Assembly (NCBI RefSeq): GCF_030296775.1
Contig: NZ_AP027742.1
Coordinates: 558,001-622,000, forward strand
Direction of reading: 5' to 3'
Origin: Claveliimonas bilis
Lineage (GTDB): Bacteria > Bacillota > Clostridia > Lachnospirales > Lachnospiraceae
Length of the DNA stretch: 64,000 nucleotides
The position numbers and the translations under genes are program-made. Of this stretch, positions 34,039 to 53,217 are shown piece by piece (position 1 is the stretch's first letter; each line of letters opens with the position of its first letter). The notes beneath the pieces were generated by a model. The model had not been told where the DNA came from. It saw only the letters and a program-made list of their open reading frames with translations, and did not search any database.

Positions 34039-34094
34039 TTTTTTGAATTGAAAGAAATTGATGGTGGAAAAAGCGGCAGAAAGGAGTGGTTGAA

Positions 34095-36479: not shown

Positions 36480-36497
36480 AAAAGGATATGATATATT

Positions 36498-37627: not shown

Positions 37628-38746
37628 TTATAACCCTTTTTTATAACGCTTTCCCAATTCATGGGCGGTCTTAACTACTGCCTTTACTTTTGCGGCATCC
37701 ATATAGAATGGTTCTCTGGTCCATTCGGTTTCCTGCGGGTTGGCGCTGATGATATCAAAATTTTCTTCTGTAGGTGCAATTCCCATATCATCCAGAGTGA
37801 CAGGAAGCCCTACACTTAAATTGAACCGGATGACTTCTTCTATCAGTTTCATATCTTCATTTTCTGCAAGCAGCTGACAGATGACGCCGAAGGCAACTTT
37901 TTCTCCGTGGAGCGCCTTATCTCCGCCGGGAACAGCTGTGATTCCATTGCACACAACATGGGAAGCGGCACAGCCCACATTCTCAAACCCGAGTCCGCTC
38001 ATCAGAGTGTTTGCCTCGATGACTGCATCCAGAGCATCCGTAACAACATGAAGTTCATTGGCAATCTTAGCCCTGACGCCAAATTCGCGGATGGTACGAT
38101 AACACTCCTCGGCAATGGCGGCGGCAGTCCGGGTACGCATGTAAGAGCCGGATTCTCCACAGATATAGTTGGGCTGATTGGTGCGGATACTTGTGCGCCC
38201 TTCAAAGACGGTAGCCAGGGCATCACCCATACCGGATACAAGGAAACGTACCGGGGCGTCTGCAATGATCTGGCTGTCTACAAGTACAAGATCCGGATTT
38301 TTGATGTAATAGTAGACATCATCGTGTTCATGTGCGTCATTGTAGATGATGGACATGGCGCTTGTGGGCGCGTCTGTAGAAGCGCTTGTAGGGATAATCA
38401 CAAGGGGAAGGGACAGCCTGGAAGCTACGGCTTTGGCGGTATCCAGTGCTTTTCCTCCGCCGATTCCGATGATGACATCCGGGGAAAAGCCACTGGCCTC
38501 GTCAGATGCTTTTTCAATAAGCTCTTTTGTAATCTCGGTCTGATACAAAAAACTCAAGAAAGCCCCTCCGGCATTCTCGTAGAGAGTGTTCAGCCTTTCT
38601 GTAAATGATTTGTAGAAAAATTCATCAATGACAGCAAAAGCCCTTTTTCCGAATTTTTCTGTGTGGATTGCCAGGCGGTCAAGTTCTCCGGCTCCCTGGA
38701 TATAGCGGCCTGGTGAACCCCAGGCATAAGAAGTAAGCGGCAGCAT
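37628..38746 (-). CDS. gldA: Glycerol-dehydrogenase-like metal-dependent alcohol dehydrogenase
   Basis: 372 residues of the iron/zinc-containing dehydroquinate-synthase-like ADH superfamily. NAD motif GIGGGKALDTAKAVA (about 94-108). Metal ligands are expected in GMGDALATVFEGR (Asp), AASHVV (His) and ALHGEKVAFG (His), as in GldA. It oxidises glycerol or another vicinal diol, or reduces hydroxyaldehydes made by a neighbouring dehydratase. RBS AAGGAGGG. Transcribed toward the GntR-LacI gene and separated from it by a shared terminator. Confidence 0.85.
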   Translation of the reverse strand: MLPLTSYAWGSPGRYIQGAGELDRLAIHTEKFGKRAFAVIDEFFYKSFTERLNTLYENAGGAFLSFLYQTEITKELIEKASDEASGFSPDVIIGIGGGKALDTAKAVASRLSLPLVIIPTSASTDAPTSAMSIIYNDAHEHDDVYYYIKNPDLVLVDSQIIADAPVRFLVSGMGDALATVFEGRTSIRTNQPNYICGESGSYMRTRTAAAIAEECYRTIREFGVRAKIANELHVVTDALDAVIEANTLMSGLGFENVGCAASHVVCNGITAVPGGDKALHGEKVAFGVICQLLAENEDMKLIEEVIRFNLSVGLPVTLDDMGIAPTEENFDIISANPQETEWTREPFYMDAAKVKAVVKTAHELGKRYKKGL

Positions 38747-38834: not shown

Positions 38835-40070
38835 TTAAGCATTCTCTGGCAGTTTATCCTTTGCAACTTTAGAAAGAATGAAAGTAAAGACTACACAGAG
38901 GAGTGCCATTACAATGGCATAGATCCAAGTCATGTTGAATCCGGTATGTCCATAGCTGTCCATCCAGCCGCCGACGATTGTGTACATGAATACGTCCGGC
39001 AGGTATCCAAGTGCAGATGCGATACCGGAAACACGTCCGCTTAAACGAAGCGGGATACCGGCATCATCATGGATAGCAAAGTACTGGCTTCTTACGGCAT
39101 AGATGAAGAACAGGCCGAAGAAGAAGTTGAAAATGATCAGTCCCAGAAGTCCTTCCTGAACCGGGATTAAAATGTAGAACAGGAAGGAAAGAGCCATACC
39201 AATAGATCCGATGATAACAACTTTGCCTCGGGAAAGTTTATCAGCAGCAAAACCTGCCACGATACCGCCAACACCCTGGATCAGGTAACGAACACCGCCG
39301 AGAGTTGCAGCTGTTGCAGCAGACATTCCGAAGAACTGCTGTGCATATGTAGTAGCGTAGCTTACAAGACCATATACGCTGTAAGCAGTGAAAACGATAG
39401 CAACCAGCACCCATACTCGAGGAAGGAGAAGAGTTTTGAACATTTCTTTTACAACTGTTCCTACAGGCTCGGATTGTTCTTCACGTTTTGTATCTTCGAT
39501 AAAGATAAAGTTTAAAATACCAATGATGATATCAACGATAGCGCACACTTTGATTGCTGCAGAAGCGCCTGCGATCTCATCTGTAAACTGTGCAAATACC
39601 CATGCCATTCCAAATACAACGGCGGCATTCAAAATACCTCTAAGTCCTTCCTGAAGACCGAACAGACGTCCCTGTTCTTCCTCTCCGCCCAGCATACGAG
39701 TCGCTTTAATGCAGGCTGACCAGTATGTAATAATAGAAGTGATTCCCATCAGGACGAAGATCAGACGTCCGATTGCAAAGCTTGGGAAGGTAGAGAACCA
39801 AAGTCCCAGAGCTCCGGTAGCGATAAAGGAAAATGTAAGCAGCTTTCTTGCTGAAAACTTATCTGCGATCATACCGCCGATAAAATAAGATAAAGTTGCC
39901 ATTGTTGCATATCCCGAAGACAGAAGACCCATCTGGGCATTGCTAAGTCCCATAGCGTTCTGAATCGGTACATAGAAAGTTTCACGAATGTAAGGAAGCT
40001 GGAAGATGATACCAGCTCCGGCCGCCAGAAGAAGCAGCGTGCCGTATTTTTTGATAAAAGCCTTGTCCAT
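38835..40070 (-). CDS. MFS transporter of the ygc-like locus
   Basis: 411 residues, about 12 transmembrane segments. The N-terminus (YGTLLLLAAGAGIIFQLPYI) resembles the YqcE/YihN-type MFS group of E. coli, one member of which lies in the ygc locus. It probably imports the organic acid or sugar derivative processed by the locus. RBS GGAGG. Its 144-nt leader carries the same attenuator element as the two rightward ygc-like units, tying it to the same regulon although transcribed in the opposite direction. Confidence 0.85.
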   Translation of the reverse strand: MDKAFIKKYGTLLLLAAGAGIIFQLPYIRETFYVPIQNAMGLSNAQMGLLSSGYATMATLSYFIGGMIADKFSARKLLTFSFIATGALGLWFSTFPSFAIGRLIFVLMGITSIITYWSACIKATRMLGGEEEQGRLFGLQEGLRGILNAAVVFGMAWVFAQFTDEIAGASAAIKVCAIVDIIIGILNFIFIEDTKREEQSEPVGTVVKEMFKTLLLPRVWVLVAIVFTAYSVYGLVSYATTYAQQFFGMSAATAATLGGVRYLIQGVGGIVAGFAADKLSRGKVVIIGSIGMALSFLFYILIPVQEGLLGLIIFNFFFGLFFIYAVRSQYFAIHDDAGIPLRLSGRVSGIASALGYLPDVFMYTIVGGWMDSYGHTGFNMTWIYAIVMALLCVVFTFILSKVAKDKLPENA

Positions 40071-40158: not shown

Positions 40159-40214
40159 CAAAAAAGAGAAAAGTAATGCCTTGCAGCGTTACTTCTCTCT
40201 TCACTCTTGTAACT
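40159..40214 (-). promoter_or_regulatory. Attenuator leader B (GlpP-type antitermination candidate)
   Basis: Minus strand. AGTTAC (40214-40209) and AGTAAC (40193-40188) enclose a purine-rich loop with AAGAG and GAAGAGA. The 3' part AGAGAAGTAACG then pairs with CATTACTTTTCTCT (about 40180-40165) to form a terminator ending in a T-run. GTTAC can instead pair with GTAAC, which would break the terminator. Same layout as leaders A and C. Confidence 0.75.
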
Positions 40215-40221
40215 ATCCTAA

Positions 40222-40250
40222 AGCATAAAAGATTTGTGTAAAAATGTCAA
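40222..40250 (-). promoter_or_regulatory. Promoter B of the MFS unit
   Basis: On the minus strand TTGACA (40250-40245), 17-bp spacer, TATGCT (40227-40222). The AGTTAC leader element begins 8 nt downstream at 40214. Confidence 0.8.
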
Positions 40251-40325
40251 TCGCAAAAGGAAATAAAAAAGAAAATTAGGTATAATTCATAAAAAAGGGA
40301 GTCCAAAAATATGTAATATGTACAA

Positions 40326-40354
40326 TTGACAACCTGTAGATCAGGATTTATACT
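40326..40354 (+). promoter_or_regulatory. Promoter A of the ygcU operon
   Basis: TTGACA (40326-40331), 17-bp spacer, TATACT (40349-40354). The AGTTAC leader element begins exactly 7 nt later, at the expected transcription start. Confidence 0.85.
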
Positions 40355-40360
40355 AAAGGC

Positions 40361-40443
40361 AGTTACCAGAAGAGCTTAGGAGAGAACAGTAACAGGAAAG
40401 GCGGATATACCGCTTTTATACTAGTTGCTTTTCTCTTTTTTTA
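40361..40443 (+). promoter_or_regulatory. Attenuator leader A (GlpP-type antitermination candidate)
   Basis: AGTTAC (40361-40366) and AGTAAC (40388-40393) flank a loop containing AAGAGC and GGAGAGA. The terminator stem uses AGAGAACAGTAAC (40381-40393) against GTTGCTTTTCTCT (about 40424-40436), with an inner GCGG/CCGC hairpin, and is followed by a seven-T run. The antiterminator pairing GTTAC/GTAAC is mutually exclusive with the terminator. AAGAGC (40370-40375) could also pair with GCTCTT (40467-40472) beyond it. Confidence 0.78.
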
Positions 40444-40551
40444 TTATGCTGTTGTGCGCAGACAGCGCTCTTTTGGTCAAAAAAGAAAAACTCTCATATT
40501 TAAAGACAGACGAAAAGAAAAAGTAGTTAAGAAATAGGAGGAAGAAACATC

Positions 40552-42009
40552 ATGGCTATTATTTCAAGGGAGAAAATTGTAGAGGGATTAGTAGAAATCC
40601 TCGGTAAAGAGCGTGTCATTACTGACGAACAGGTATTAAAAGAAAGCAGTCTCGACAGATACAGAAAGTATGAGCAGGTATTCGAAGTATATACACAGCC
40701 GATTCCGGCAGCAGTTGTATATGTAACAAGCACAGAGGAAGTTTCCAAAGTTCTTTCATTTGCAAATGACAATGAGATCAACATTGTGCCGAGAACCGGA
40801 CATTCCGCTATCGAGGGAGGATTAGAGACAGCTCTTAAAGACTCCGTTGTTGTAGATGGTTCTATGATGAATAAAGTACTGAAAGTAGATACATACAACA
40901 TGCAGGTAACATGCCAGTGTGGTGTTCCGCTTCAGGATCTGGACGATATGCTTCGTGAGCAGGGATACACAACAGGACATTCTCCGCAGTCCAAACCTCT
41001 TGCACAGATCGGCGGTCTTGTTGCAACAAGAAGTATCGGACAGTTCTCTACACTTTATGGCGGAATCGAAGATATGATCGTTGGTATGGAAGCTGTGTTC
41101 CCGAATGGAAAGATCTGCAGAATCAAAAACGTTCCAAGACGTGCGGCAGGTCCGGATATCAGACATATCATCTGTGGAAACGAAGGAGCTCTTTGCTTTA
41201 TCACAGAAGTAACACTGAAGCTCTTCAAATGGCAGCCGGAAAACAACAGATACATTGCATACAAGCTGGATGATGAGCAGATGAAGCTTGGATTTGACTG
41301 CCTGCGTGAAGTTATGGTAGCAGGTTACAAACCTTCTTTTGCACGTCTGTACGATGCAGCAGATGCACAGCAGCACTTCAGCGCATGGCTGGAAGAAGGA
41401 AAAGCAATCCTTATCTGGATGGCAGAAGGACCGGAAAATATTACACCGGCTATTGAAGCGGGTATCCGTGATCTGATGAGCAAACATCCGGAACTGGAAG
41501 AAGTAGATCCTAAGCTTATTGAAAAATGGTACGGTGGACTGAACTGGGGACCAGAGCAGATTGCTGAAGAAAAAGAAGAAATCAAAGCAACAAAGAACAT
41601 TGGTATTACAACAGAGGTTTCCGGAAGCTGGGATAATATCTATGATATTTACAAAACAGCATGTGACAGAATCCTTGCAGAAGTTCCGGATATGACTTTG
41701 ATGGGAGGACATTCTTCACATAGCTATATCAACGGAACAAATATGTACTTTGTATACTACTACAACGTTGTAGACTGTGCTCCGGAAGAAGAGATCAACA
41801 AATATCATGACAGAATCAATCAGATCATCTGCGAGCAGGTTATCAAATACGGCGGATCCATTGTTCATCACCATGGACTTGGAAAAGCAAGAGCTCACTA
41901 TGTAACTGAAGAATACGGATCATCTTACTATATGCTGAAGACACTGAAGCAGGCATTTGATCCAAATGGTATTATGAACATGGGAACACTGATTCCTTTA
42001 AGAAAATAA
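40552..42009 (+). CDS. ygcU: YgcU-type FAD-linked dehydrogenase
   Basis: 485 residues, VAO/PCMH flavoprotein family (glycolate/D-lactate dehydrogenase-like). The FAD-binding stretches PRTGHSAIEGG (about 83) and HSPQSKPLAQIGGLVATRS (about 144) and the C-terminal HHHG (439-442) closely follow E. coli YgcU as I remember it. It likely oxidises a 2-hydroxy acid and passes electrons to the Etf pair encoded next. First gene of a ten-gene operon; RBS AGGAGGAAG. Substrate unknown. Confidence 0.88.
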   Translation: MAIISREKIVEGLVEILGKERVITDEQVLKESSLDRYRKYEQVFEVYTQPIPAAVVYVTSTEEVSKVLSFANDNEINIVPRTGHSAIEGGLETALKDSVVVDGSMMNKVLKVDTYNMQVTCQCGVPLQDLDDMLREQGYTTGHSPQSKPLAQIGGLVATRSIGQFSTLYGGIEDMIVGMEAVFPNGKICRIKNVPRRAAGPDIRHIICGNEGALCFITEVTLKLFKWQPENNRYIAYKLDDEQMKLGFDCLREVMVAGYKPSFARLYDAADAQQHFSAWLEEGKAILIWMAEGPENITPAIEAGIRDLMSKHPELEEVDPKLIEKWYGGLNWGPEQIAEEKEEIKATKNIGITTEVSGSWDNIYDIYKTACDRILAEVPDMTLMGGHSSHSYINGTNMYFVYYYNVVDCAPEEEINKYHDRINQIICEQVIKYGGSIVHHHGLGKARAHYVTEEYGSSYYMLKTLKQAFDPNGIMNMGTLIPLRK

Positions 42010-42019
42010 GATTAAGATT

Positions 42020-42829
42020 ATGAAAATATTGGGTTGCTTTAAAGTGGTTCCCGATCTGGATCTGGTGGCAGAGGAAGATTGGGAGTTAGAAGGACAGCTC
42101 CATGTGGATACTAGCTATGTCAAGCCAATATGGAACTGTTTTGATGAGAGCGCTCTGGAAATGATGTTAAAGCTTTCTGATTTGTCAGGAAGCTTTAACA
42201 TCGTTTTTGAATTAAGTGCGCTGACAATTGGAAAAGAGAAAGACGAGTCGTTTTTGAAGACGCTTTATGCTCTGGGGTATGCCCATGCAGTGCGTATTAT
42301 GCAGGAAGAGCCGGAAAATTTTGCCCCTGAAAGTCTTGCGGGAGCGATTGCGGGATATCTCAAAAAATACGCCATGCAGGATGTGGTTGTTATGGGTGGA
42401 CAAAGTTCAGTAGGGAGCAATATGAAGACGCCATATCTTCTGGCAGAGCTGCTTGGATGGCCTTGTTTTACTCAAGTTACCTCTATGGAGCCGGTAGATG
42501 ATAACTGTCTTAAGATTACCTGTAAAACAGACGGCGGAAGCGTTATCCGTACGGTAAAAACTCCCTGTGTACTTGTTGTGGGAAATGCAGAGAATACCTA
42601 TCTTCGTGTACCGACTCTGAAGGATAAAATGAAGCTTGGCAAAAAGCCGATCGAGAGGCTGACTATAGAGGAAGTAAATGAAGAAATTCCGATGGAATCA
42701 GCGAAGCTTGTCTCACTGGAAAATGTGGAAAGAAAAAGAGATACAAAATGGATCGAAGGAGCGACTCCCCAGGAGAAGGCGGAGAAGCTTTTTGAATCAT
42801 ATCTGAAGGAAAGGCTGGAAAAACTATGA
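42020..42829 (+). CDS. ygcR: Electron transfer flavoprotein beta-like subunit (YgcR)
   Basis: 269 residues, Etf-beta fold. The segment PYLLAELLGWPCFTQV (about 138-153) matches E. coli YgcR almost exactly. The AMP-binding end of ordinary EtfB is divergent here. Partner of the alpha-like subunit encoded next (ATGA overlap 42826-42829). It should accept electrons from YgcU. Confidence 0.85.
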   Translation: MKILGCFKVVPDLDLVAEEDWELEGQLHVDTSYVKPIWNCFDESALEMMLKLSDLSGSFNIVFELSALTIGKEKDESFLKTLYALGYAHAVRIMQEEPENFAPESLAGAIAGYLKKYAMQDVVVMGGQSSVGSNMKTPYLLAELLGWPCFTQVTSMEPVDDNCLKITCKTDGGSVIRTVKTPCVLVVGNAENTYLRVPTLKDKMKLGKKPIERLTIEEVNEEIPMESAKLVSLENVERKRDTKWIEGATPQEKAEKLFESYLKERLEKL

Positions 42830-43764
42830 GATATCATCTGGTTATCAACGGATTCCTGTCAGAAATACAGGCGCAGATGGAAGAAATGTGCGGCTTTGCA
42901 AAAGGGCTTCCCGATGAAATAGAAGAAGGGGAAGCTTTGGTTATATTAAAAACAGGTGAAAAAATATTGGATGGCATACCGGCGTCAGAGGCCAGGGTGC
43001 TTTATATGGAAACATATACGCCGGTAAATGCTTTGGATGTTTTGTGCGGGTGGATGACGTCAGAAGATCTGTATATCTTTGGAAGCGATCCATCGGATAT
43101 TGAATTGGCAGTGCGGTGCGGAGCAAGGAAAAAAGGGAGCTCCCTTGCAGCAGTGGGAAAGATCACAGTCGCTGACGGAGGCCTTCAGGCTTCCAAGATG
43201 GTGTATGCCAATCATCTGAAAGCGGCCTTTTTGATGCAGACCGGCCCCTACTGCATTTCTCTTGAGAGAGGAATGGATAAGGCGAAGAAGGATTCAGGAG
43301 ACATCGCAGTTACAGAAGAAGCGAATGTCGGAAAGCCGGATTTTATCCTGGAAGAAGAATTTATTCCGGAAGAAAAGGAAAAGGGACTGGAGCAGGCAAA
43401 GGTTGTGATCGCCGCAGGAAGAGGATGCGGAAGCAAAGAAAATGTAAAAAGGCTGGAACAGACGGCAGAGAGTCTGGGAGGAGTTCTGGGAGTGAGCAGA
43501 CCGGCTGCCATGAATGCCTGGGAGCCTATGGACAGGCTTATCGGCGTATCCGGAGCCATGCTTGCACCGGAGATCTGTTTTGCGGTAGGGGCATCCGGTG
43601 CGGCGGCATTTTATGCAGGCATTGAAAAGAGTAAATTTATTGTTGCTGTAAACCGGGACGAAAGAGCGCCGATCATGAAGCAGGCTGATGTGGCGATCGC
43701 GGATGACTTTCTTCCGGTCATGAAACGGATAGAAGAACTTTCAGAAAATTTGAAAAGACAGTAA
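42826..43764 (+). CDS. ygcQ: Electron transfer flavoprotein alpha-like subunit (YgcQ)
   Basis: 312 residues. The C-terminal FAD-binding domain (about 190-300) contains GRGCGSKENVKRL, VSRPA, a GVSGAMLAPEICFAVGASGA segment and AVNRDERAPI, the expected Etf-alpha order. The N-terminal half is poorly conserved, as in E. coli YgcQ. Forms a heterodimer with the upstream beta-like subunit. Translationally coupled by a 4-bp overlap. Confidence 0.84.
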   Translation: MRYHLVINGFLSEIQAQMEEMCGFAKGLPDEIEEGEALVILKTGEKILDGIPASEARVLYMETYTPVNALDVLCGWMTSEDLYIFGSDPSDIELAVRCGARKKGSSLAAVGKITVADGGLQASKMVYANHLKAAFLMQTGPYCISLERGMDKAKKDSGDIAVTEEANVGKPDFILEEEFIPEEKEKGLEQAKVVIAAGRGCGSKENVKRLEQTAESLGGVLGVSRPAAMNAWEPMDRLIGVSGAMLAPEICFAVGASGAAAFYAGIEKSKFIVAVNRDERAPIMKQADVAIADDFLPVMKRIEELSENLKRQ

Positions 43765-43778
43765 AATAGGAGGAAAAG

Positions 43779-45206
43779 ATGAGCGTCACAATTTTTCCTA
43801 TGGAGGAACAGTATAAAGAATATCTGATTGACGAGTCCAAATTCACAGGAAACGCCGACAGCATTTCTTTTCCGGAAACGGAAAGCGAGATACGGGAAGT
43901 GCTGGAACATTTGGGCAAAGATGTGAAAATTACGATTCAGGGGGGGAAGACCGGAATCACCGGAGCGGCAGTTCCGGAAGAAGGCCATATCCTGAATTTG
44001 TCCCACATGAACAAGGTAAAGGATGGAGAGGTACATTCGGATGGCACGGCTTCTGTGACCGTAGAACCTGGGATTACCCTCATGGATCTGAAAAAAGAAA
44101 TAGACAGCATGTTCCGCAAGACACCGGTATTCTGGCCGCCGGATCCAACAGAGACTTCGGCGACAGTCGGCGGTGTGGCGGCGGAAAATGCAGAAGGAAT
44201 CTGCAGGATTTTATATGGACCGGCAAGAGACTACATTGAAAAAATCCGTGTCCTTTATCCGGACGGTACTGTTCAGGAGATAGGATGGGGCGAAAAAATC
44301 GTGCTGGCATCCGGAAAAGAAATGGAAAAGATGGATACGGTTCTTGGCAAAGAAGGAATTACAGGGATTATTACGGAACTGACTTTAAAACTTCTTCCCA
44401 AACCGGAAAGTCTGTGGGGAATTGCATTTTTCTTCCGTGATACCGGAGAAGCCGGGCAGTTTGTGGACAGCCTTAAGGAGGAGCTTCCGTCTTGTGAAAC
44501 TGCAGCTGTGGCGGCGGTAGAATACATTGATCGTAAGACCATGGACCTGATCGAGGAGAGAAAGCCTTCCATGTCAAAGATCAAGGAACTGCCGGATATT
44601 GAACAGGAGATCACAGATATGGTCTATCTGGAGATCCAGGGGCAGGAGGAAGGCATTGAAGAGATTGCGGAATGCCTGATGGAAAAAGCGGCAGAATGCG
44701 GAAGCGATCCTGATGAAGCCTGGGCAGTGTCCGGTGAGGCAGAGATCGAGAAAATGCATGCGTTTCGCCATGCGGCGGCCGAGACAGCCAATCTTTTCAT
44801 TGAAGGGGTCAGACGAACAAATAAAGAGATTACGAAGCTGGGCACGGATATGGCGGTGGCAGACGCCGGTTTTTCGGAAATTCTGAAAAAGAGCAGGGAG
44901 GATATCGCGAAAAGCGGTCTTTCAGCCTGTATTTTCGGACATGCCATGGAAAATCATCTGCACATTAATCTTCTTCCGGAAAATAAGGAAGAGTATGAAG
45001 AGGGGATCCGTCTTTTGTCCCGGTGGGCAAAGGAGACGAGCACCCATGGTAAAGTGATCGGGGAACATGGAATCGGGAAATTGAAAAAGAAAATATTGGG
45101 AGATTCAGTTCCGGGAGATTATCTTGAAGTCTGCCGGGAGCTGAAACAACAATATGACAGTGTATACAGACTGAATCCGGGAAATATCATTGAAACAGAG
45201 GAGTAA
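43779..45206 (+). CDS. GlcD/lactate-dehydrogenase-like FAD-binding oxidoreductase
   Basis: 475 residues, second VAO-type flavoprotein of the operon and clearly different from YgcU. PPDPTE (about 125), TSATVGGVAAENAEG and the C-terminal GHAMENHLHINLLP and GEHGIGKLKK are GlcD/D-lactate dehydrogenase signatures. It is followed by EtfB and EtfA genes, the composition of the electron-confurcating lactate dehydrogenase of Acetobacterium (LctD with LctBC). RBS AGGAGG. Substrate is probably a 2-hydroxy acid. Confidence 0.87.
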   Translation: MSVTIFPMEEQYKEYLIDESKFTGNADSISFPETESEIREVLEHLGKDVKITIQGGKTGITGAAVPEEGHILNLSHMNKVKDGEVHSDGTASVTVEPGITLMDLKKEIDSMFRKTPVFWPPDPTETSATVGGVAAENAEGICRILYGPARDYIEKIRVLYPDGTVQEIGWGEKIVLASGKEMEKMDTVLGKEGITGIITELTLKLLPKPESLWGIAFFFRDTGEAGQFVDSLKEELPSCETAAVAAVEYIDRKTMDLIEERKPSMSKIKELPDIEQEITDMVYLEIQGQEEGIEEIAECLMEKAAECGSDPDEAWAVSGEAEIEKMHAFRHAAAETANLFIEGVRRTNKEITKLGTDMAVADAGFSEILKKSREDIAKSGLSACIFGHAMENHLHINLLPENKEEYEEGIRLLSRWAKETSTHGKVIGEHGIGKLKKKILGDSVPGDYLEVCRELKQQYDSVYRLNPGNIIETEE

Positions 45207-45211
45207 AAGCG

Positions 45212-46009
45212 TTGAAGATAGCAGTGTGTATGAAACAGGTTCCCAGGACGACAGAAGGGAACATGGATAAAAAGACAGGTGTGCTGATCCGCGCCGGGCT
45301 GGAAGCGGTAGTAAATGTCTATGACCTGGCGGCGTTGGAAGCAGCACTTCAAATACGGGAGCAAAGCGGCGGAGAGATCCATGTTTATACGATGGGTCCT
45401 GCTAAAGCGGAGGAGGCCATAAGAACGGCCTTTGCCATGGGAGCAGACGAGGGATTCCTCATCACTGACAGCGCTTTTGCAGGCGCGGATGTCCTGGCAA
45501 CTTCCTACACGCTGATGCAGGCAATACAAAAAGAGGGCGGTTACGATCTGATCTTATGCGGAAAGCAGACAACAGACGGCGATACGGCGCAGGTCAGCGG
45601 AGCCCTTGCGAAATGGTTGGATCTTGTCCATTTAAATTGGGTGACAGAGATCCATACAGATGGAAGCAGCGATCTGAAAGTGACATATCTTATGGAAGGA
45701 AGAGACATTGAGGCCAGAACAAAACTGCCATGTCTTTTATCAGTGGAGAAGGACAGCTTTATTCCCAGGATGCCTTCTTTAAAACTGAAGATCAGCGGAA
45801 GAAAAAAAGAAATCCATCACCTTGCTCTTGCAGATTTTGCAGATCAGGACACATCCCATTATGGTCTGAACGGATCGGCTACACGAGTGAAGCGGATTTT
45901 CCCGCCGGCAAGAACGAAGCGGCAGGAGCTTCAGATCATGGAAAAAGAACAGGCAGTCGGATATATTATGGACATTATAGACGGCTGGGATTGGAGGGGA
46001 CAGTCATGA
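45212..46009 (+). CDS. etfB: Electron transfer flavoprotein subunit beta
   Basis: 265 residues, canonical Etf-beta. It has N-terminal CMKQVPRT, the AMP/FAD loop CGKQTTDGDTAQV (about 111-123) and LPCLLSVEKD. TTG start at 45212 with CAGAGGAG 8 nt upstream. Its TGA overlaps the EtfA start (ATGA 46006-46009). More conventional than the YgcR-type subunit upstream, so the operon holds two separate Etf systems. Confidence 0.88.
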   Translation: MKIAVCMKQVPRTTEGNMDKKTGVLIRAGLEAVVNVYDLAALEAALQIREQSGGEIHVYTMGPAKAEEAIRTAFAMGADEGFLITDSAFAGADVLATSYTLMQAIQKEGGYDLILCGKQTTDGDTAQVSGALAKWLDLVHLNWVTEIHTDGSSDLKVTYLMEGRDIEARTKLPCLLSVEKDSFIPRMPSLKLKISGRKKEIHHLALADFADQDTSHYGLNGSATRVKRIFPPARTKRQELQIMEKEQAVGYIMDIIDGWDWRGQS

Positions 46010-47013
46010 TGCTGAGGAAAAGCCTTAAGGAGGAACAGAACCAGTGGACGGGGATTCTCGTCTATGTGGAATGTTATAAGGGAAAAGTAATGCCGGTCAG
46101 CCTGGAGCTTATCGGTGAGGCCAGACGACTTGCTGCAAAAGCCGGAGGAAAAGTTTACGGAGTGGCAATTGGGGAGAAGCCGGAAGAAATAAGGGAAGAG
46201 CTGAAGGACAGTTTTCTGGATGAGGCTTATCTCTGGGAGGCGTCCGATGAGTATCTTCCGATCGCCTATGAGCGGATCATGACAGAGTGTATCAATACTA
46301 TTCGCCCATCGGTTGTATTGATCGGGGGAACCAGGGAAGGAAGGGCGCTTGCGCCGCGGATCGCCGTGGAGTTTCGGACAGGGCTCACTGCGGACTGTAC
46401 TTCTCTTGAAATAGATGACGATGGAAATCTCATGCAGACAAGGCCGGCATTTGGTGGCAATATTATGGCAGAGATCCTTACAAAAGACCGCCGCCCGCAG
46501 CTTGCTACAGTGAGACCGGGAGTCATGCCGAAAAGACCGGGAATACCGGGAAAGCATACCGTATTTTATATGAAAAAGTGGGACGGGCCGGATGAGACTG
46601 TGACAATAGAGGCAGTAAAAGAACAGAGTCAGGATGATAGTATTGCAGGTCAGAAAATATTGGTAGCGGCAGGGCGAGGAGTAAAAAAGAAAGAAGATCT
46701 GGAAATGCTCCGTGAGCTGGCACATCTTCTGGGAGGTGAGCTTGCCTGCAGCAGGGCTCTGGTAGAAAAGGGATGGATGAGCCCCTCCAGACAGATCGGA
46801 CTTTCGGGAAGCACTGTTTCCCCGGATTATCTCATTACATGCGGTGTGTCGGGAACGGTTCAGTTTATGGCCGGTATGAAAACTGCAAAAAATATCATTG
46901 CCATCAATTCGGATCCGGACGCAAGAATCTTTGAAATCGCTCATTATCCGGTGTGTGCCGACCTGTATGAGGTAGTGCCGGATCTGATCGAGCGTTTGAA
47001 AGAAGGGAGATGA
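46006..47013 (+). CDS. etfA: Electron transfer flavoprotein subunit alpha
   Basis: 335 residues. The C-terminal FAD domain carries GRGVKKKEDLEML, CSRALVEKGW, RQIGLSGSTVSPDY, GVSGTVQFMAGM and IAINSDPDARIFEIA. The frame is open much further upstream (45730), but the ATG at 46006, after GGAGGGG and overlapping the EtfB stop, is the natural start. It works with EtfB and the GlcD-like dehydrogenase upstream. Whether it bifurcates electrons cannot be settled by eye. Confidence 0.87.
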   Translation: MMLRKSLKEEQNQWTGILVYVECYKGKVMPVSLELIGEARRLAAKAGGKVYGVAIGEKPEEIREELKDSFLDEAYLWEASDEYLPIAYERIMTECINTIRPSVVLIGGTREGRALAPRIAVEFRTGLTADCTSLEIDDDGNLMQTRPAFGGNIMAEILTKDRRPQLATVRPGVMPKRPGIPGKHTVFYMKKWDGPDETVTIEAVKEQSQDDSIAGQKILVAAGRGVKKKEDLEMLRELAHLLGGELACSRALVEKGWMSPSRQIGLSGSTVSPDYLITCGVSGTVQFMAGMKTAKNIIAINSDPDARIFEIAHYPVCADLYEVVPDLIERLKEGR

Positions 47014-47555
47014 CAGATCTGAAATTTCGATATCGGTTAAGTGAGGAGGACTGGATAGAAGCGCTGCTCTGTCTGGATTACAGGCGGTCGGGGAAATTTC
47101 GCCAGATTAACATATGGATATTGAGCATTTTGGGAGCAGCAGCGCTGATCGCTTATATAAGGTCTCCGGACAGATTCTTTTTGTTTTTGTTTCTTGCAGT
47201 CATCATTCTTCTTGATTTTTATATGGCATATGGAATGGATTTCCTGAGAAACCGGAAAGCCAGGAAATTGGCTTCCATGCAAGGGGAATATGAAATAGAA
47301 ATCAGTGACAGGCAGATCGTATATAGAGAGGGACAAGCAAAGATTAAATATTCCGGTGCGAAAATAAAATGGTTCCGGTCAGATCATGTCTATGTTTTAA
47401 AGATAGAAAGAGAGCTTTTTGTACTCCCAAGAAGGATTCTGGGAACACAGCAGGCGGAGCGTCTGGAAACCATTTTTAAAAATACAAACGTACCCATGAT
47501 AGAGATACGAGTGGAAAGGAGAGAGAGCATATGGGAACGGAAGAAAAAACAGTAA
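47010..47555 (+). CDS. Small YcxB-like membrane protein of unknown function
   Basis: 181 residues with two adjacent transmembrane segments (about 33-50 and 54-72) and a basic C-terminal domain (about 90-160) of alternating beta character, as in YcxB-like proteins. It overlaps etfA by 4 bp and the BCCT gene by 25 bp, so it is tightly embedded in the operon. It could assist the transporter or the Etf module at the membrane. No function is known to me. Confidence 0.7.
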   Translation: MTDLKFRYRLSEEDWIEALLCLDYRRSGKFRQINIWILSILGAAALIAYIRSPDRFFLFLFLAVIILLDFYMAYGMDFLRNRKARKLASMQGEYEIEISDRQIVYREGQAKIKYSGAKIKWFRSDHVYVLKIERELFVLPRRILGTQQAERLETIFKNTNVPMIEIRVERRESIWERKKKQ

Positions 47556-49144
47556 AAACAGTTGACTTGAAATTAAGAAAAGGGGTCTTTTTTCCGCCAT
47601 GGATTTTACTGGCCGCTATGGTCGTAGTCAGCCTGACAAACGGAGACGCATTTCTTGCAGGCCTTAATGCGGTAACAAGCTGGGTTCTGGATAATTTTGC
47701 CTGGGCATTTAACCTGACGGCGCTTGGCAGTGTAATTACTGTGATCGTTATCTGGTTTTCTCCTCTTGGCAAGGTAAGGATCGGAGGCAGCAAAGCCAGA
47801 CCGATGATGAAGTACATGGATCTTGTGTGGATCACCCTGTGTACGATCATTGCAGCCGGAATCCTGTTCTGGGCATGTGCGGAGCCGATGTATCACTTAT
47901 ATACACCGGCAGTAGCGGCAGGTGTGGAATCCGGAAGCGCAGACGCGGCAGTATTTGCCATGGAAACTATGTATCTGGAATGGACGATTACGCCCTGTGC
48001 TATTTATGTTATTGCAACACTTACGTTTGCCTTTGTATATTATAATATGAACCAGTCCTTCTCCCTTGGATCGGCATTGGTTCCGGCATTTGGGGTGAAG
48101 GCAAAGAAATTCGGCGGCATTGTGGATGTTATCTGTCTTTTTTCACTTGTTGCCGGTATGGCGGCGTCTATCGGGACAAGCGTTATGTCTATTGGCGGCG
48201 GAGTGGAAAGCGTTTTCGGGATAGAAAGCGGTCCGGCTTCCTGGCTGGTGATCGCCGCATTGATTATGATCACTTTTATTATTTCCAGTGTATCAGGTAT
48301 CATGAACGGAATCCGTATCCTGTCATCCCTTAACGCGAAAGTGTACTTTGTATTCCTGATCATCATTTTCCTGTTTGGGCCGACGGCATATATGCTGAAT
48401 GTATCCGTAGAGTCCCTGGGAGCCTTCCTGAAAGATTTTGTTCATCTGAACCTGATGAACGGAGCGGTACATGGAGACAGCTGGGCAAAGAGCTGGCCGG
48501 TATTCTACTGGTGTAACTGGCTTGCATGGACCCCTATCACAGGAGTGTTCCTTGGAAAAATCTTAAGGGGATATACCGTCCGCGACGCGATCAAGTGTAA
48601 CTTTGTTATTCCGGCTGCGTTCAGCATGATCTGGATAGCGCTGTTTTCCTCCGCTTCCCTTTACTATGAGTTCAGCGGACAGGGATTAAATGAAACCATG
48701 CTGGAGAGTGGACCGGAGTCTGTTGTGTACAGCGTATTTTCACAGCTTCCGTTGTCAGTAATTATCGCTGTGTTCTACGTGTTCATCATTTTTATTTCTA
48801 TTGTAACAGGCTCGGATACCAATACGAATGCCATGGCAGGACTGTGTACGCATGGTATCACTCCGGATCAGGAAGAGGCGCCGTCCTGGCTGAAAATCGT
48901 CTGGGGAGTTACTCTTGGAGCGGTAACCTACATCCTGATTGCCTTTGCAGGAATTGATGGTATCAAGGCGGCCTCCAACCTGGGAGGATTTCCTAATATG
49001 TTCCTTGTGCTCATCATGATATTCGGGCTTTTGAAGATCAGCGTAAATCCGAAGAAGTATGATGTACATAAGGAAGACTATGACAGCAACGGCAGACCGA
49101 TCGAATCACCCAGGCTGCCTGTGGAGGAAAAAGAAGAGGGATAG
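47531..49144 (+). CDS. BCCT-family transporter (betaine/carnitine/choline type)
   Basis: 537 residues, about 12 transmembrane segments. The BCCT tryptophan box is clear at 322-338 (WPVFYWCNWLAWTPITG), followed by ILRGYTVRD. The glycine-rich segment after ASIGTSVMSIGGGVESV matches the substrate and Na+ region. BCCT proteins carry quaternary ammonium compounds or related zwitterions, so at least one substrate of the locus may be of that type. It starts inside the previous gene. E. coli ygc, as I know it, has no BCCT. Confidence 0.9.
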   Translation: MGTEEKTVKTVDLKLRKGVFFPPWILLAAMVVVSLTNGDAFLAGLNAVTSWVLDNFAWAFNLTALGSVITVIVIWFSPLGKVRIGGSKARPMMKYMDLVWITLCTIIAAGILFWACAEPMYHLYTPAVAAGVESGSADAAVFAMETMYLEWTITPCAIYVIATLTFAFVYYNMNQSFSLGSALVPAFGVKAKKFGGIVDVICLFSLVAGMAASIGTSVMSIGGGVESVFGIESGPASWLVIAALIMITFIISSVSGIMNGIRILSSLNAKVYFVFLIIIFLFGPTAYMLNVSVESLGAFLKDFVHLNLMNGAVHGDSWAKSWPVFYWCNWLAWTPITGVFLGKILRGYTVRDAIKCNFVIPAAFSMIWIALFSSASLYYEFSGQGLNETMLESGPESVVYSVFSQLPLSVIIAVFYVFIIFISIVTGSDTNTNAMAGLCTHGITPDQEEAPSWLKIVWGVTLGAVTYILIAFAGIDGIKAASNLGGFPNMFLVLIMIFGLLKISVNPKKYDVHKEDYDSNGRPIESPRLPVEEKEEG

Positions 49145-49146
49145 AT

Positions 49147-49722
49147 ATGGCATTGACGACAGAAGAATTTATGGAACTGACAGCAGACTGCCCGGTGATA
49201 CCGGCGGCAAAGAACGACGAATGGCTGGAGGCATGTCTGGCTTCAGAGAGCAAACTTGTCTATGTACTTTACGGCGATATCTGCAACATTGCAGATATCG
49301 TCAAGAAACTGAAAGAAAAAGATAAAAAGGTGATCGTCCACATTGATCTGATCGAAGGGCTGACATCAAAAGAAATCTGTGTGGATTTTATAAAGAAATA
49401 TACCATGGCAGACGGGATCATCAGCCTGAAGCCCACTATGATCAAGAGAGCCAAAGATCTCGGCATTTTTACGATTCAGCGTTTCTATATGATGGACGGA
49501 AGAAGTTATACCAATATTGTCAAGCATGTGCGTCATACGAATCCGGAAGTGGTGGAGTTTATGCCGGCAGGGCTTACCAAGCTGATTCCTTATCTTGTCC
49601 ATGAAGTGGACAAACCGGTAGTTGCCAGCGGCCTGATCCAGGACAAAGAAGATGTCATGGGAGCGCTGAAGGCAGGGGCTATGGCGGTGTCCAGTACAAA
49701 TAGAGAAGTATGGGATTGTTAG
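49147..49722 (+). CDS. ygcP: GlpP-family RNA-binding antiterminator (YgcP-like)
   Basis: 191 residues, full length for the GlpP family. It has a TIM-barrel-like fold with VIPAAKNDEWL, HIDLIEGL (65-72), ADGIISLKPTMIKRAK, IQRFYMMD and a late phosphate-binding ASGLIQDKEDV and GAMAVSSTN. B. subtilis GlpP binds glycerol-3-phosphate and prevents termination in the glpD leader. This paralogue, like E. coli YgcP, sits among flavin dehydrogenase, Etf and kinase genes. It is the obvious candidate to act on the three shared leaders here, including that of its own operon. Confidence 0.9.
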   Translation: MALTTEEFMELTADCPVIPAAKNDEWLEACLASESKLVYVLYGDICNIADIVKKLKEKDKKVIVHIDLIEGLTSKEICVDFIKKYTMADGIISLKPTMIKRAKDLGIFTIQRFYMMDGRSYTNIVKHVRHTNPEVVEFMPAGLTKLIPYLVHEVDKPVVASGLIQDKEDVMGALKAGAMAVSSTNREVWDC

Positions 49723-49762
49723 CGCCGCGCAAATACAGGGCGACGCAGTATAAGGAGAGACT

Positions 49763-50647
49763 ATGAAAGCAGATGTAGAATGTTTGGACTGTTGTGTAAA
49801 TAAGGTGTCCGGACTTTTGGACCAATACCAGGCTGACGACAGCATACGGGAGGCTGTTCTCGAAAAAGTGAGAGAAATCCTGAAACAGGCAGACAAGGAT
49901 GTGTCCGCTCCTGTTCTGATGCAGCAGACTGTTGATGTGCTGGAGGACTATTTTGAGATAGACGATGCCTATACGGTGCCAAAAGAGAAGTATAACCGGT
50001 ATCTTATGGAAAGAGAAGAACAGATCCGGCAGACAATCCGTATGTCCCGTGATCCTTTCCTTACGGGACTGCAATATGCTGTAACCGGGAATTACATTGA
50101 TTTTGGAGCAATGTCGGATGTGAATGAAGAGAAGCTTGCACAGCTTCTTGCAGACTATGATAAGCTGCCCCTTGATACGGAGGAGATCGAACGTCTGCGA
50201 GGGGAAGTTTCCCGGGCAAAGAGCCTGGTTTATATCACGGATAATGCAGGGGAAATTGTATTGGATAAACTGTTTATCGAGGCAATGAAAGGGCTGCATC
50301 CCGGTCTGAAAGTGACAGTGCTTGTCAGAGGATTTCCCACATTGAATGACGCTACAAAAGAGGATGCTGCTTTTATTGGTATGCCTGAAATTGCAGAGGT
50401 TTTGACTAACGGGATAAAAATCCCCGGCACTCCCCTGGATCGGATCAGCAAAGAGGCGCTGGATCGGATCAAAAGGGCTGATCTTTGTATTGCCAAAGGT
50501 CAGGGGAACTTCGAGACACTGCGGGGATGCGGAGAAAATATTTATTATCTGTTCCTGTGCAAGTGTACATTGTTCGTGAAGAAGTTCCAGGTGGCAAGAT
50601 TTACCCCGGTTCTTGGAAATGAAAAGAGAATTGTGCAATATGCATAA
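49763..50647 (+). CDS. DUF89 damage-control phosphatase
   Basis: 294 residues. DUF89 motifs are DNAGE (160-164) and KGQGNFE (245-251), with a preceding RGFPTLNDAT; the acidic residues bind the metal. An N-terminal ECLDCC Cys cluster (8-12) is typical of the prokaryotic branch. The family dephosphorylates toxic or dead-end sugar-phosphate by-products. As the last gene of the ygcU operon, next to a sugar-type kinase, it may clear mis-phosphorylated intermediates. It lies 40 nt after ygcP. Confidence 0.85.
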   Translation: MKADVECLDCCVNKVSGLLDQYQADDSIREAVLEKVREILKQADKDVSAPVLMQQTVDVLEDYFEIDDAYTVPKEKYNRYLMEREEQIRQTIRMSRDPFLTGLQYAVTGNYIDFGAMSDVNEEKLAQLLADYDKLPLDTEEIERLRGEVSRAKSLVYITDNAGEIVLDKLFIEAMKGLHPGLKVTVLVRGFPTLNDATKEDAAFIGMPEIAEVLTNGIKIPGTPLDRISKEALDRIKRADLCIAKGQGNFETLRGCGENIYYLFLCKCTLFVKKFQVARFTPVLGNEKRIVQYA

Positions 50648-50681
50648 AAATAGGGTATCGTTTTTTAATATTATCACGATA

Positions 50682-50710
50682 TTGACAAAATGAAGTAATC
50701 GCTGTACTAT
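50682..50710 (+). promoter_or_regulatory. Promoter C of the ygcW-ygcE-surE unit
   Basis: TTGACA (50682-50687), 17-bp spacer, TACTAT (50705-50710). AGTTAC begins 7 nt later, as in unit A. Confidence 0.85.
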
Positions 50711-50716
50711 GTACGT

Positions 50717-50786
50717 AGTTACTAAAAGAGCGAAAGAGAAAGTAACTTTTACCCGTGTAGTGCGGGTAGAAGTTACTTTTTTCATT
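50717..50786 (+). promoter_or_regulatory. Attenuator leader C (GlpP-type antitermination candidate)
   Basis: AGTTAC (50717-50722) and AGTAAC (50741-50746) flank AAAAGAGC and GAAAGAGA. The terminator is a 16-bp stem (50740-50755 with 50763-50778) followed by a T-run. GTTAC/GTAAC pairing excludes the terminator. AAAAGAGC (50724-50731) can pair with GTTCTTTT (50815-50822) downstream, and TTGTGCGCAG recurs at 50794-50803. Confidence 0.8.
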
Positions 50787-50860
50787 TTCTCTATTGTGCG
50801 CAGGTAGAGGAAGAGTTCTTTTACGGGACAAAAGAATTGAAGGTTTTTGGAGGTATAACA

Positions 50861-51646
50861 ATGAGCTTAAATATCAATGATTTTTCTATGGATTTCTTTT
50901 CACTGAAGGGGAAAAATGCAATCGTAACAGGAGGATGCAGCGGATTGGGACAGGCATTCGCACTGGCGCTTGCAAAAGCCGGAGCAAATATTTTCTGCTT
51001 TGCAGCAGTAAATGACGACGGAACAACACAGAAACTGATTGAGGATTGCGGCGTAAAATATACATTCATGCTGGGAGATATTACAGAGGATGGAATCTGT
51101 GATAAAGTTGCAGAGAAGTGCGTAGAGACATACGGATCCATTGATATCCTTGTAAACTGTGCAGGAATCTGCAAGATTGCTGATGTACTTGACTTCGGCA
51201 GAGCAGAATGGGATCCGATGATCGCGATCAACCTGACAGGTGCTTTTGATTTAAGCCATGCAGTAGCAAAATACATGATCCCACAGAAGAGCGGAAAGAT
51301 CATTAACATCTGTTCTCTGTTCTCTTTCCTTGGCGGACTTGGATCACCGGCATATGCTGCAATGAAAGCAGGACTTATGGGACTGACAAAAGCGTATGCA
51401 GATGAACTTGGAAAATATGGAATCTGTGTAAATGGTATTGCTCCTGGATACTTCCAGACAAGCATGACAAGCGGAACAGGAAGCGCAAACGATGAGAAGT
51501 ACATCAAGATCAAAGAGCATGTTCCGGCTGATCGTTGGGGAGAGAGACAGGATCTGATGGGAACTGTTGTTTATCTGGCAAGCCGTGCATCTGACTATGT
51601 AAACGGAACTCTGGCAGTTGTAGACGGAGGATACCTTGTAAGATAA
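50861..51646 (+). CDS. ygcW: YgcW-type short-chain dehydrogenase
   Basis: 261 residues, SDR family. It has TGGCSGLG cofactor motif, NCAG, SLFSFLGG and catalytic Tyr-x3-Lys (YAAMK). The N-terminal FSMDFFSLKGK and C-terminal VNGTLAVVDGGYLVR are near identical to E. coli YgcW. It probably oxidises or reduces a sugar acid or ketose. The ATG at 50861 with GGAGG is chosen over an upstream TTG. First gene of the third attenuated unit. Confidence 0.9.
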   Translation: MSLNINDFSMDFFSLKGKNAIVTGGCSGLGQAFALALAKAGANIFCFAAVNDDGTTQKLIEDCGVKYTFMLGDITEDGICDKVAEKCVETYGSIDILVNCAGICKIADVLDFGRAEWDPMIAINLTGAFDLSHAVAKYMIPQKSGKIINICSLFSFLGGLGSPAYAAMKAGLMGLTKAYADELGKYGICVNGIAPGYFQTSMTSGTGSANDEKYIKIKEHVPADRWGERQDLMGTVVYLASRASDYVNGTLAVVDGGYLVR

Positions 51647-51786: not shown

Positions 51787-53217
51787 ATGAGTGAGAAATA
51801 TATTATCGGTATTGATGAAGGTTCCCAGAGTGCCAAAATTTTGATTTTTGACACAAAAGGAAATATTGTATGCGAGGGAAAACATCCATTAAAACCATAC
51901 AACCTCCCGGGACCGGAGCTTGTAGAGCATCCGGACGATGACTGGTGGGATGCGATCTGCCAGGCAGGAAAAAAATGTATGGCTAACTTTAAAGGAAATA
52001 AAGAAGACATCGTGGGAATCGGACTTTGTACGATCCGTTACTGCAGAGCTTATCTGAAGGAAGACGGAATGCTTGCACAGCCGGCTCTTAGCTGGATGGA
52101 TATCCGTGTATCCAAGCCATATGATTTCTCTAATCCGGATGCAAAATATGTAGTAGCATCTTCCGGATACATTACATACAGACTGACAGGTGAACACAAG
52201 GATACGATCGGAAACTATGAAGGCGTATGGCCGATCGATATCGACAACTGGAAATGGTCTGATGATCCGGAAGCATACAAAAATACAGGAATGCCAAGAG
52301 AAATGCTGTTTGACCTTGTAATGCCGGGTGATATCCTGGGCTATGTGACAAAGGAAGCTGCAGAAGCAACAGGATTTCCGGAAGGAGTACCGGTTGTGGC
52401 AACATCCAATGACAAAGCAGTAGAAGGTCTTGGAACAGGATGTATGGGTGAGACAACTGCATGTATTTCCCTCGGAACATACACAGCAGGTATGATGGAA
52501 GGAAAAGAAAACCTGAAGGGTACAACCGCTACATGGCCGAAATTCTCCTGCGTGCCAAACAAGTATCTGTATGATACAAACGGTATCAGAAGAGGAATGT
52601 GGACAGTAAGCTGGTTCAGAGATATTCTGGGAGACGGATACAAGAAAGAAGCAGAAGCACAGGGGATGTCTGCAGAAGAGCTTTTGAGCAAAGAAGCGGA
52701 GGCAGTTCCGGCAGGTTCCAACGGTCTGATGACAGTGCTTGACTGGCTGGCACCTGTAGATGCGCTTTACAAAAAAGGTGTTATGATCGGATTTGACGGA
52801 AGACATAAAAGAGGACATATCTACCGTTCTATCCTGGAAGCTGTAGCACTTACCATGAAAAAGCATGTTACGGATATGACAAACGAGATCGGTGTAAAGC
52901 TTGATAAGATCATCATCACCGGAGGCGGTTCCAACAGCGATCTTTTCATGCAGATCTTTGCAGATGTATTTAACATCCCGATGGTGCGCAACGAGGTAAA
53001 CGGAGCAGCAGGACTTGGATCTGCAATCTGCGCGGCAGTTGCTGCAGGTGTATATAAGAGCTTTGATGAGGCGGTAGAAAATATGGTTCGTATCAAAGAC
53101 ACCTTTACACCGAATCCGGAAGCAGTTGCATTTTATGAGAAGATGTACCCGGTTTATACAAACATCACAAAACATACAGATGAAGTATTAAAAGAGGCGT
53201 ATGAACTTTTCAACTAA
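51787..53217 (+). CDS. ygcE: YgcE-type FGGY carbohydrate kinase
   Basis: 476 residues. N-terminal YIIGIDEGSQSAKI, then EHPDDDWWDAICQAG and FKGNKEDIVGIGL, with late ITGGGSNSDLFMQIFADVFN; all closely match E. coli YgcE. It is an ATP-dependent kinase of an unidentified sugar or sugar-acid-like substrate. Its phosphorylated product is a natural candidate ligand for the GlpP-family protein, by analogy with glycerol kinase and GlpP. Confidence 0.9.
   Translation: MSEKYIIGIDEGSQSAKILIFDTKGNIVCEGKHPLKPYNLPGPELVEHPDDDWWDAICQAGKKCMANFKGNKEDIVGIGLCTIRYCRAYLKEDGMLAQPALSWMDIRVSKPYDFSNPDAKYVVASSGYITYRLTGEHKDTIGNYEGVWPIDIDNWKWSDDPEAYKNTGMPREMLFDLVMPGDILGYVTKEAAEATGFPEGVPVVATSNDKAVEGLGTGCMGETTACISLGTYTAGMMEGKENLKGTTATWPKFSCVPNKYLYDTNGIRRGMWTVSWFRDILGDGYKKEAEAQGMSAEELLSKEAEAVPAGSNGLMTVLDWLAPVDALYKKGVMIGFDGRHKRGHIYRSILEAVALTMKKHVTDMTNEIGVKLDKIIITGGGSNSDLFMQIFADVFNIPMVRNEVNGAAGLGSAICAAVAAGVYKSFDEAVENMVRIKDTFTPNPEAVAFYEKMYPVYTNITKHTDEVLKEAYELFN

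Follow-up and report, generated by a model that had tools for sequence, protein, structure and literature searches.

Three leaders in Claveliimonas bilis are predicted attenuators of a YgcP-type GlpP antitermination regulon

In this work we describe a leader type that is common to three transcription units within a 64,000-nt stretch of the Claveliimonas bilis genome (contig NZ_AP027742.1, positions 558,001 to 622,000; below, the window). The leaders start at 40361 (+), 40214 (-) and 50717 (+) and, as judged from their sequences, very probably are transcription attenuators under the YgcP-type GlpP protein of the middle operon. This protein (49147..49722, +), the proposed switch, matches PF04309 (G3P_antiterm) over the full profile with 208 bits at a cut-off of 27; it is 99% identical to a Claveliimonas bilis GlpP, and structures of relatives have been solved (3kts, 1vkf). 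Passages of two papers describe GlpP of Bacillus subtilis as an antiterminator that acts upon glycerol-3-phosphate binding (PMC9604022, PMC7430163). One of these passages has the ligand-bound protein bind the antiterminator (PMC7430163), and another places a promoter, a GlpP binding site and an inherent terminator in the 5′ untranslated region of three promoters, glpD, glpFK and glpT (PMC9604022). In the literature that we searched, we found no description of a YgcP leader or of the GlpP branch treated here, and no paper about YgcP.

Results

All three leaders show the same order of elements, namely TTGACA, a 17-nt spacer, a -10 box, 6-7 nt, AGTTAC, a loop and GTAAC. Promoter scan and spacing place the promoter of the ygcU-like operon at 40326..40354 (+; -10 box TATACT), that of the MFS/gldA-like unit at 40222..40250 (-; TATGCT) and that of the ygcW-like unit at 50682..50710 (+; TACTAT), and the A of AGTTAC follows the -10 box after 6, 7 and 6 nt, respectively. 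This confirms the initial annotation, which had put leaders with 17-bp-spaced promoters at these three places. The predicted antiterminator hairpins follow at 40361..40393 (+), 40188..40214 (-) and 50717..50746 (+), and GTTAC is complementary to GTAAC in each of them. The loop had at first been read as a purine loop with AAGAG and AGAGA. Since the letters around GAG vary, it is better described by a pair of GAG boxes that lie 7-10 nt apart. By fold, an intrinsic terminator is present between promoter and gene in all three units (40378..40442, +; 40160..40202, -; 50736..50782, +), whereas a simple scan found that of the ygcW-like unit alone. In all three folds the terminator has its 5′ arm built from GTAAC and the second GAG box. 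Pairings and folds hence support the proposal that GTTAC/GTAAC pairing and the terminator are mutually exclusive.

The hairpin was searched for with a covariance model, R1, which was built from 12 sequences of Clostridia only (Lachnospiraceae plus G141 from another family of the order). These sequences were N-padded because a plain MAFFT alignment misaligned GTAAC. The MFS/gldA-like and ygcW-like leaders of the window were inside the training set (E 0.044 and 0.0018), and the ygcU-like leader, with E 9.3e-5, was outside it. In the 3.1-Mb genome that holds the window (G000), R1 gave exactly three matches at E <= 10 (150 of 2,927 first-look candidates scored), and these were the three leaders; their sharing thus exceeds chance. 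A GlpP protein query brought in 14 loci, nine of which (L005-L012, L018) carry all three leaders before the same kinds of genes, while L014-L017 encode more distant GlpP proteins of 42-49% identity. No leader was visible in L013 (GlpP 63% identical), whose contig ends before the place of the MFS leader; its protein falls in the Lachnospiraceae YgcP group, and its glpP stands beside an MFS gene with no ygc genes in view.

Among 260 Lachnospiraceae genomes, R1 reached E <= 0.05 in three (G000, G551 and G086), and the same three were the only ones with a GlpP of at least 60% identity, the next being 51% (68 genomes had a GlpP at E <= 1e-10). Of these, G551 has close relatives in the training set, and G086 is outside it. 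In 255 Clostridia, four genomes gave matches at E <= 0.1: the window's own, G823, G844 and G881. The blind search found two leaders each in G823 and G844, which belong to another family; one leader precedes a ygcU-like gene and the other the gene of a BCCT transporter, on the contig that also carries glpP. A GlpP at E <= 1e-50 occurred in four of the 255 (G000, G823, G844, G934). The covariance search that had been proposed for the leaders therefore did not end in a lack of conservation among relatives, and the claim that three units share a leader which co-occurs with a YgcP-type GlpP is upheld by the R1 matches and the related loci.

Several R1 candidates were discarded by eye. Single matches in four Lachnospiraceae genomes (G066, G639, G565, G595; E 0.1-0.2) had no such terminator, G544:C12:5422 lies inside a clpP-like frame and, like G086:C3:62853, lacks a terminator of the leader kind, and the G881 match was read as coding, again without such a terminator. 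Weak further matches were G545:C74, G542:C13, G546:C1:437642 and G543:C1:2701373.

By its sequence elements, the predicted regulon is not confined to Lachnospiraceae or to other Clostridia; it is also found in Escherichia coli K-12, Streptomyces clavuligerus and Enterococcus gilvus. In the 4.8-Mb record of E. coli H240, which like the two plasmids below took no part in the training of R1, the sole R1 match, with strict filters, was the ygcW leader (E 0.22). In a 25-kb region of E. coli K-12 scanned without filters, R1 gave 25.0 bits at the ygcW leader and 15.7 bits at the yqcE leader, the two elements lying back to back in the ygcW-yqcE interval. This stretch is present over at least 80% in 4,999 of 5,426 complete E. 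coli genomes, and the ygcP gene over at least 80% of its length in 5,055. Comparing K-12 with three other E. coli strains, 12 of 13 variable positions fall outside both elements, and the remaining one concerns T-run length. On a Streptomyces clavuligerus plasmid the sole match (E 0.21) lies between glpP and an SDR (ygcW-like) gene and has a terminator; on an Enterococcus gilvus plasmid the sole match is the MFS leader beside glpP (E 1.25). These occurrences are best explained by a YgcP branch of GlpP antitermination that spans Bacillota, Pseudomonadota and Actinomycetota. In lists contained in earlier work, the ygcW/yqcE region appears as a predicted CRP target (PMC3105977) and with RpoD promoters (PMC3946193), and ygcP appears in the gene list of an oxidant-resistance screen (PMC8228696); the main text of an E. 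coli 3′-end mapping paper does not name genes of the region (PMC7815308).

In a tree of 112 GlpP proteins (116 before removal of four partial rows), the 14 element-linked proteins form two groups, one of the Lachnospiraceae type, together with L013, and one with E. coli, Enterococcus, Streptomyces, G186 and G045; the tree, in which the bootstrap had not converged, does not settle how the two groups relate. G186 was picked from this tree. Its element lies between glpP and ygcW and is the only R1 match in the 55 kb searched (E 0.079); the stem reads AATTAC/GTAATT instead of AGTTAC/GTAACT.

Other glpP loci carry other stems, for example GACTT/AAGTC, ATGGT/ACCAT or AGGAC/GTCCT. The family-wide mark hence is the pair of GAG boxes, and the GTTAC/GTAAC stem marks the YgcP branch. 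A fixed scan for two GAG boxes, a 5-bp stem and a competing terminator was run around 40 PF04309 genes, mostly one per Bacillota family; it was fixed after short parts of 14 of the 40 loci had been seen. It returned 17 places in 638 kb, distributed over 15 loci, and none in 400 kb of other DNA (20 stretches from ten of the same genomes). Replacing GAG by six other triplets gave 0-2 places in each of the two sets. The 26 loci unseen before the scan was fixed contributed nine places in nine loci. When the stem requirement was dropped, 36 candidates resulted, and a stem stood at the expected place in 17 of them, compared with 0-3 at seven shifted places. An open reading frame of at least 100 codons starts within 260 nt in 14 of the 17 places. 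Ten of the downstream proteins could be named: three FAD-dependent oxidoreductases (DAO, a family that includes the glycerol-3-phosphate dehydrogenases), two FGGY kinases, one aquaporin-family protein, two DUF6905 proteins, one solute-binding protein and one HAD hydrolase. For the glycerol branch, leader letters were compared via Cytobacillus leaders (before annotated aquaporin and glycerol-3-phosphate dehydrogenase genes), which stand in for B. subtilis; two of them have the element by eye, with stems of 3-4 bp. The B. subtilis leader papers of Glatz (1996, 1998) and Holmberg (1991, 1992) may describe GAG boxes of the glycerol branch. It seems to us a reasonable, somewhat favored assumption that GlpP proteins throughout the family recognize a single RNA code, in which a branch-specific short stem, GTTAC for YgcP, closes a loop and the protein grips two GAG boxes within it. 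The YgcP protein of K-12, annotated merely as a putative anti-terminator, would accordingly be the antiterminator of ygcWUSRQ and yqcE-ygcE.

The association with glpP genes also bears on whether another RNA-binding protein, of BglG/SacY type or TRAP, HutP, CsrA or ANTAR, works the hairpin and glpP is a mere neighbor. A short hairpin that overlaps a terminator and is held by a protein is, in line with a passage in PMC7430163, also the plan of BglG, SacY and LicT with their ribonucleic antiterminator (RAT) hairpins. The two GAG boxes likewise resemble the (G/U)AG repeats of TRAP, and also the NAG repeats that HutP of Bacillus binds according to the same source (PMC7430163). HutP and TRAP, however, read more repeats with hexameric or ring-shaped proteins, whereas the leaders of the window have two boxes in one loop, proposed here as protein contacts; compared with the BglG-type systems, both protein family and RNA sequence differ. 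Moreover, the element accompanies GlpP-family genes in three phyla, a blind search locates it on glpP contigs, the same RNA plan recurs near other glpP genes, and the cluster proteins scanned showed no other known antiterminator domain, including that of PRD-type RNA-binding proteins. We thus regard a different protein as improbable and YgcP as the better candidate.

GTTAC-N-GTAAC could also be a DNA operator at the transcription start, bound by a repressor or activator, with the terminator-like stem being incidental. Its position would fit. All 30 leaders read keep the 6-7 nt gap from the -10 box, and all ten ygcU leaders have 6 nt, which puts the element at the expected start, a frequent operator position; the 30 come from ten genomes, that of the window among them, and include near-copies. 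The loop is asymmetric, however, and its GAG boxes stand on the sense strand of the next gene in every leader read. In addition, in 45 of 46 parsed elements GTAAC can pair, with 4 or 5 of its 5 positions, to a segment farther downstream that a T-run follows, and other glpP loci keep the GAG boxes despite different stems. An operator is therefore still less probable than another RNA-binding protein, and the attenuator remains our preferred reading.

Computed for 17 leaders, the antiterminator stem alone ranges from +1.0 to -1.1 kcal/mol and the terminator from -13.0 to -30.6 kcal/mol. With a stem this weak and a terminator this strong, termination is the expected default, and read-through would require a factor that holds the hairpin. 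That the RNA itself senses a metabolite as a protein-free riboswitch, to which leader position and terminator alternative would correspond, is least probable of all, given that there is no conserved fold beyond this 5-bp stem and that Rfam yielded no match over gathering score in the window and no leader family in seven related loci (its sole match there, sok in L053, is distant from the leaders).

Several observations weigh against the proposed YgcP attenuators or their extension to the family. The YgcP-branch stem reads GTTAC/GTAAC in 43 of 47 cases, with two changed on both sides and two with G-U, in a count for which four rows were re-read by eye and many stems were found by pairing in the first place; with a nearly invariant stem, covariation in this branch is thin. 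The E-values that R1 assigns to held-out leaders are modest and should be taken as rough, and some R1 matches fall in coding sequence. G934 has a GlpP at E 6.9e-51, yet no R1 match in the search of the 255 Clostridia, and G045, whose GlpP falls in the E. coli-like group, has ygc genes yet no R1 element, its ygcW leader carrying a different terminator. On the tree, the element label needs five changes and marks no single clade. With the strict scan, 25 of the 40 GlpP neighborhoods had no element, and the named plasmid-collection loci were positive in two and without an element in eight of ten. The G186 element was overlooked as well. Three of the 17 scan places have no start of a 100-codon open reading frame within 260 nt, and one of these three (L131:12654) has long spacers. 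R2, a general covariance model for the whole family, gave 13 matches in 398 genomes. Five lay in genomes that carry a GlpP over cut-off, no more than the base rate (147/398) would give; three of the 13 were within 4 kb of glpP, and none of its own training genomes matched. Having missed every genome of its training set, R2 has no power and was rejected as genome-wide evidence, so that the family-wide claim rests on the neighborhood tests.

Discussion

From these data a switch may be proposed as follows. Promoter spacing suggests the A of AGTTAC, or a nucleotide close to it, as the transcription start. Without YgcP, the second GAG box and GTAAC would pair with their downstream copy, and according to sequence and computed energies the resulting strong intrinsic terminator would stop the transcript before the genes. 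YgcP carrying its ligand would grip both GAG boxes of the loop that GTTAC/GTAAC pairing closes. As long as the hairpin is held, the 3′ arm would not be free and transcription could proceed. As a result, transporters, dehydrogenases with electron-transfer flavoproteins, phosphatases and a kinase would be switched on together. An equal arrangement would serve ygcW-ygcU-ygcS-ygcR-ygcQ and yqcE-ygcE in E. coli K-12. Binding of the leader RNA by YgcP is what we infer by analogy.

Like the B. subtilis GlpP system, the regulon of the window has a PF04309 protein and a promoter and terminator in the leader. Unlike there, its targets are ygcU, ygcW, MFS and BCCT units and its stem is GTTAC/GTAAC. In the Pfam and NCBIfam scans, glpF, glpK, glpD and glpT/Q were not among the controlled genes; as the controlled genes are of ygc type, we file the system as a branch separate from the B. 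subtilis-like glp regulon. The gene cluster suggests that the ligand is a phosphorylated compound other than glycerol-3-phosphate. An FGGY kinase is found in the window, in G186, G045, G823 and G844, and by annotation in Enterococcus and Streptomyces; E. coli has the putative sugar kinase gene ygcE. Its recurrence suggests its phosphorylated product as ligand, and by analogy this product probably is what YgcP binds.

Our analysis thus provides a predicted binding site and a target list for a regulator that most complete E. coli genomes carry. Within the data searched, it also proposes a common description of the RNA recognized by GlpP proteins. Furthermore, it offers a handle for finding the sugar phosphate that the ygc genes handle, genes that are still unexplained in E. 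coli.

Other features of the window

In its make-up, as far as domain assignments tell, the gene set of the window resembles the ygc genes of E. coli. Based on Pfam, the ygcU-like operon (all +) begins with a YgcU-like FAD-linked dehydrogenase (40552..42009) and an EtfB/EtfA pair similar to YgcR/YgcQ (42020..43764), followed by a second FAD-linked dehydrogenase (43779..45206) and, from domain scans, a second EtfB/EtfA pair (45212..47013, the EtfA start near 46006 picked by eye). For a 181-residue protein of this operon (47010-47555), neither Pfam nor NCBIfam returned a match within the limits used. A BCCT transporter (47531..49144) precedes YgcP, and an ARMT1-like damage-control phosphatase (49763..50647; Pfam, below cut-off in NCBIfam) comes after it. 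The ygcW-like unit (+) comprises a YgcW-like SDR dehydrogenase (50861..51646; Pfam, start picked by eye) and, from Pfam and NCBIfam scans, a YgcE-like FGGY sugar kinase (51787..53217) and a SurE-family phosphatase (53201..54004). On the minus strand, the third unit contains an MFS transporter (38835..40070; Pfam) and a glycerol-dehydrogenase-like iron alcohol dehydrogenase (37628..38746; Pfam and NCBIfam). Adjoining the regulon and without the RNA element, positions 34086-37529 hold a glycyl radical enzyme similar to pyruvate formate-lyase, then a GntR-type regulator with a sugar-binding domain.

A second conserved hairpin, seen by eye and by pattern search, lies 3′ of the attenuator in the ygcU-like leader (40448..40466, +; GCTGT-TGTGCGCAG-ACAGC) and in the ygcW-like leader (50789..50809, +; CTCTAT-TGTGCGCAG-GTAGAG). 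Its 9-nt loop, TGTGCGCAG and once GGTGCGCAG, contains the palindrome TGCGCA, and the stems vary on both arms. It is present too in the ygcW leaders of L006, L007, L010 and G551 and in both leaders of G141; in the stretches read it was not seen in the ygcU leaders of L006, L007 and L010 or in either leader of L009 and L012. Nine places in the window's own genome fit the pattern, of which by eye two resemble leader hairpins, namely those in the window.

A very divergent PF04309-type protein was noted in L090 (Klebsiella pneumoniae record CP125156.1), with an aldolase gene on one side and a set of FGGY kinase, SDR and 2-hydroxyacid dehydrogenase genes on the other; the two-GAG-box scan found no element there. 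The genome of the window holds a second glpP outside it (G000:C1:421359-492603; L207, L208), in two pieces roughly 70.7 kb apart. Letters adjoining the right piece resemble, by eye, a large serine recombinase, so that an integrated element probably sits in this gene; with it split, YgcP of the window is the only whole PF04309 gene over cut-off in the genome. Directly 3′ of the 3′ piece, at 4612-4720 of L208, lies a long imperfect inverted repeat.

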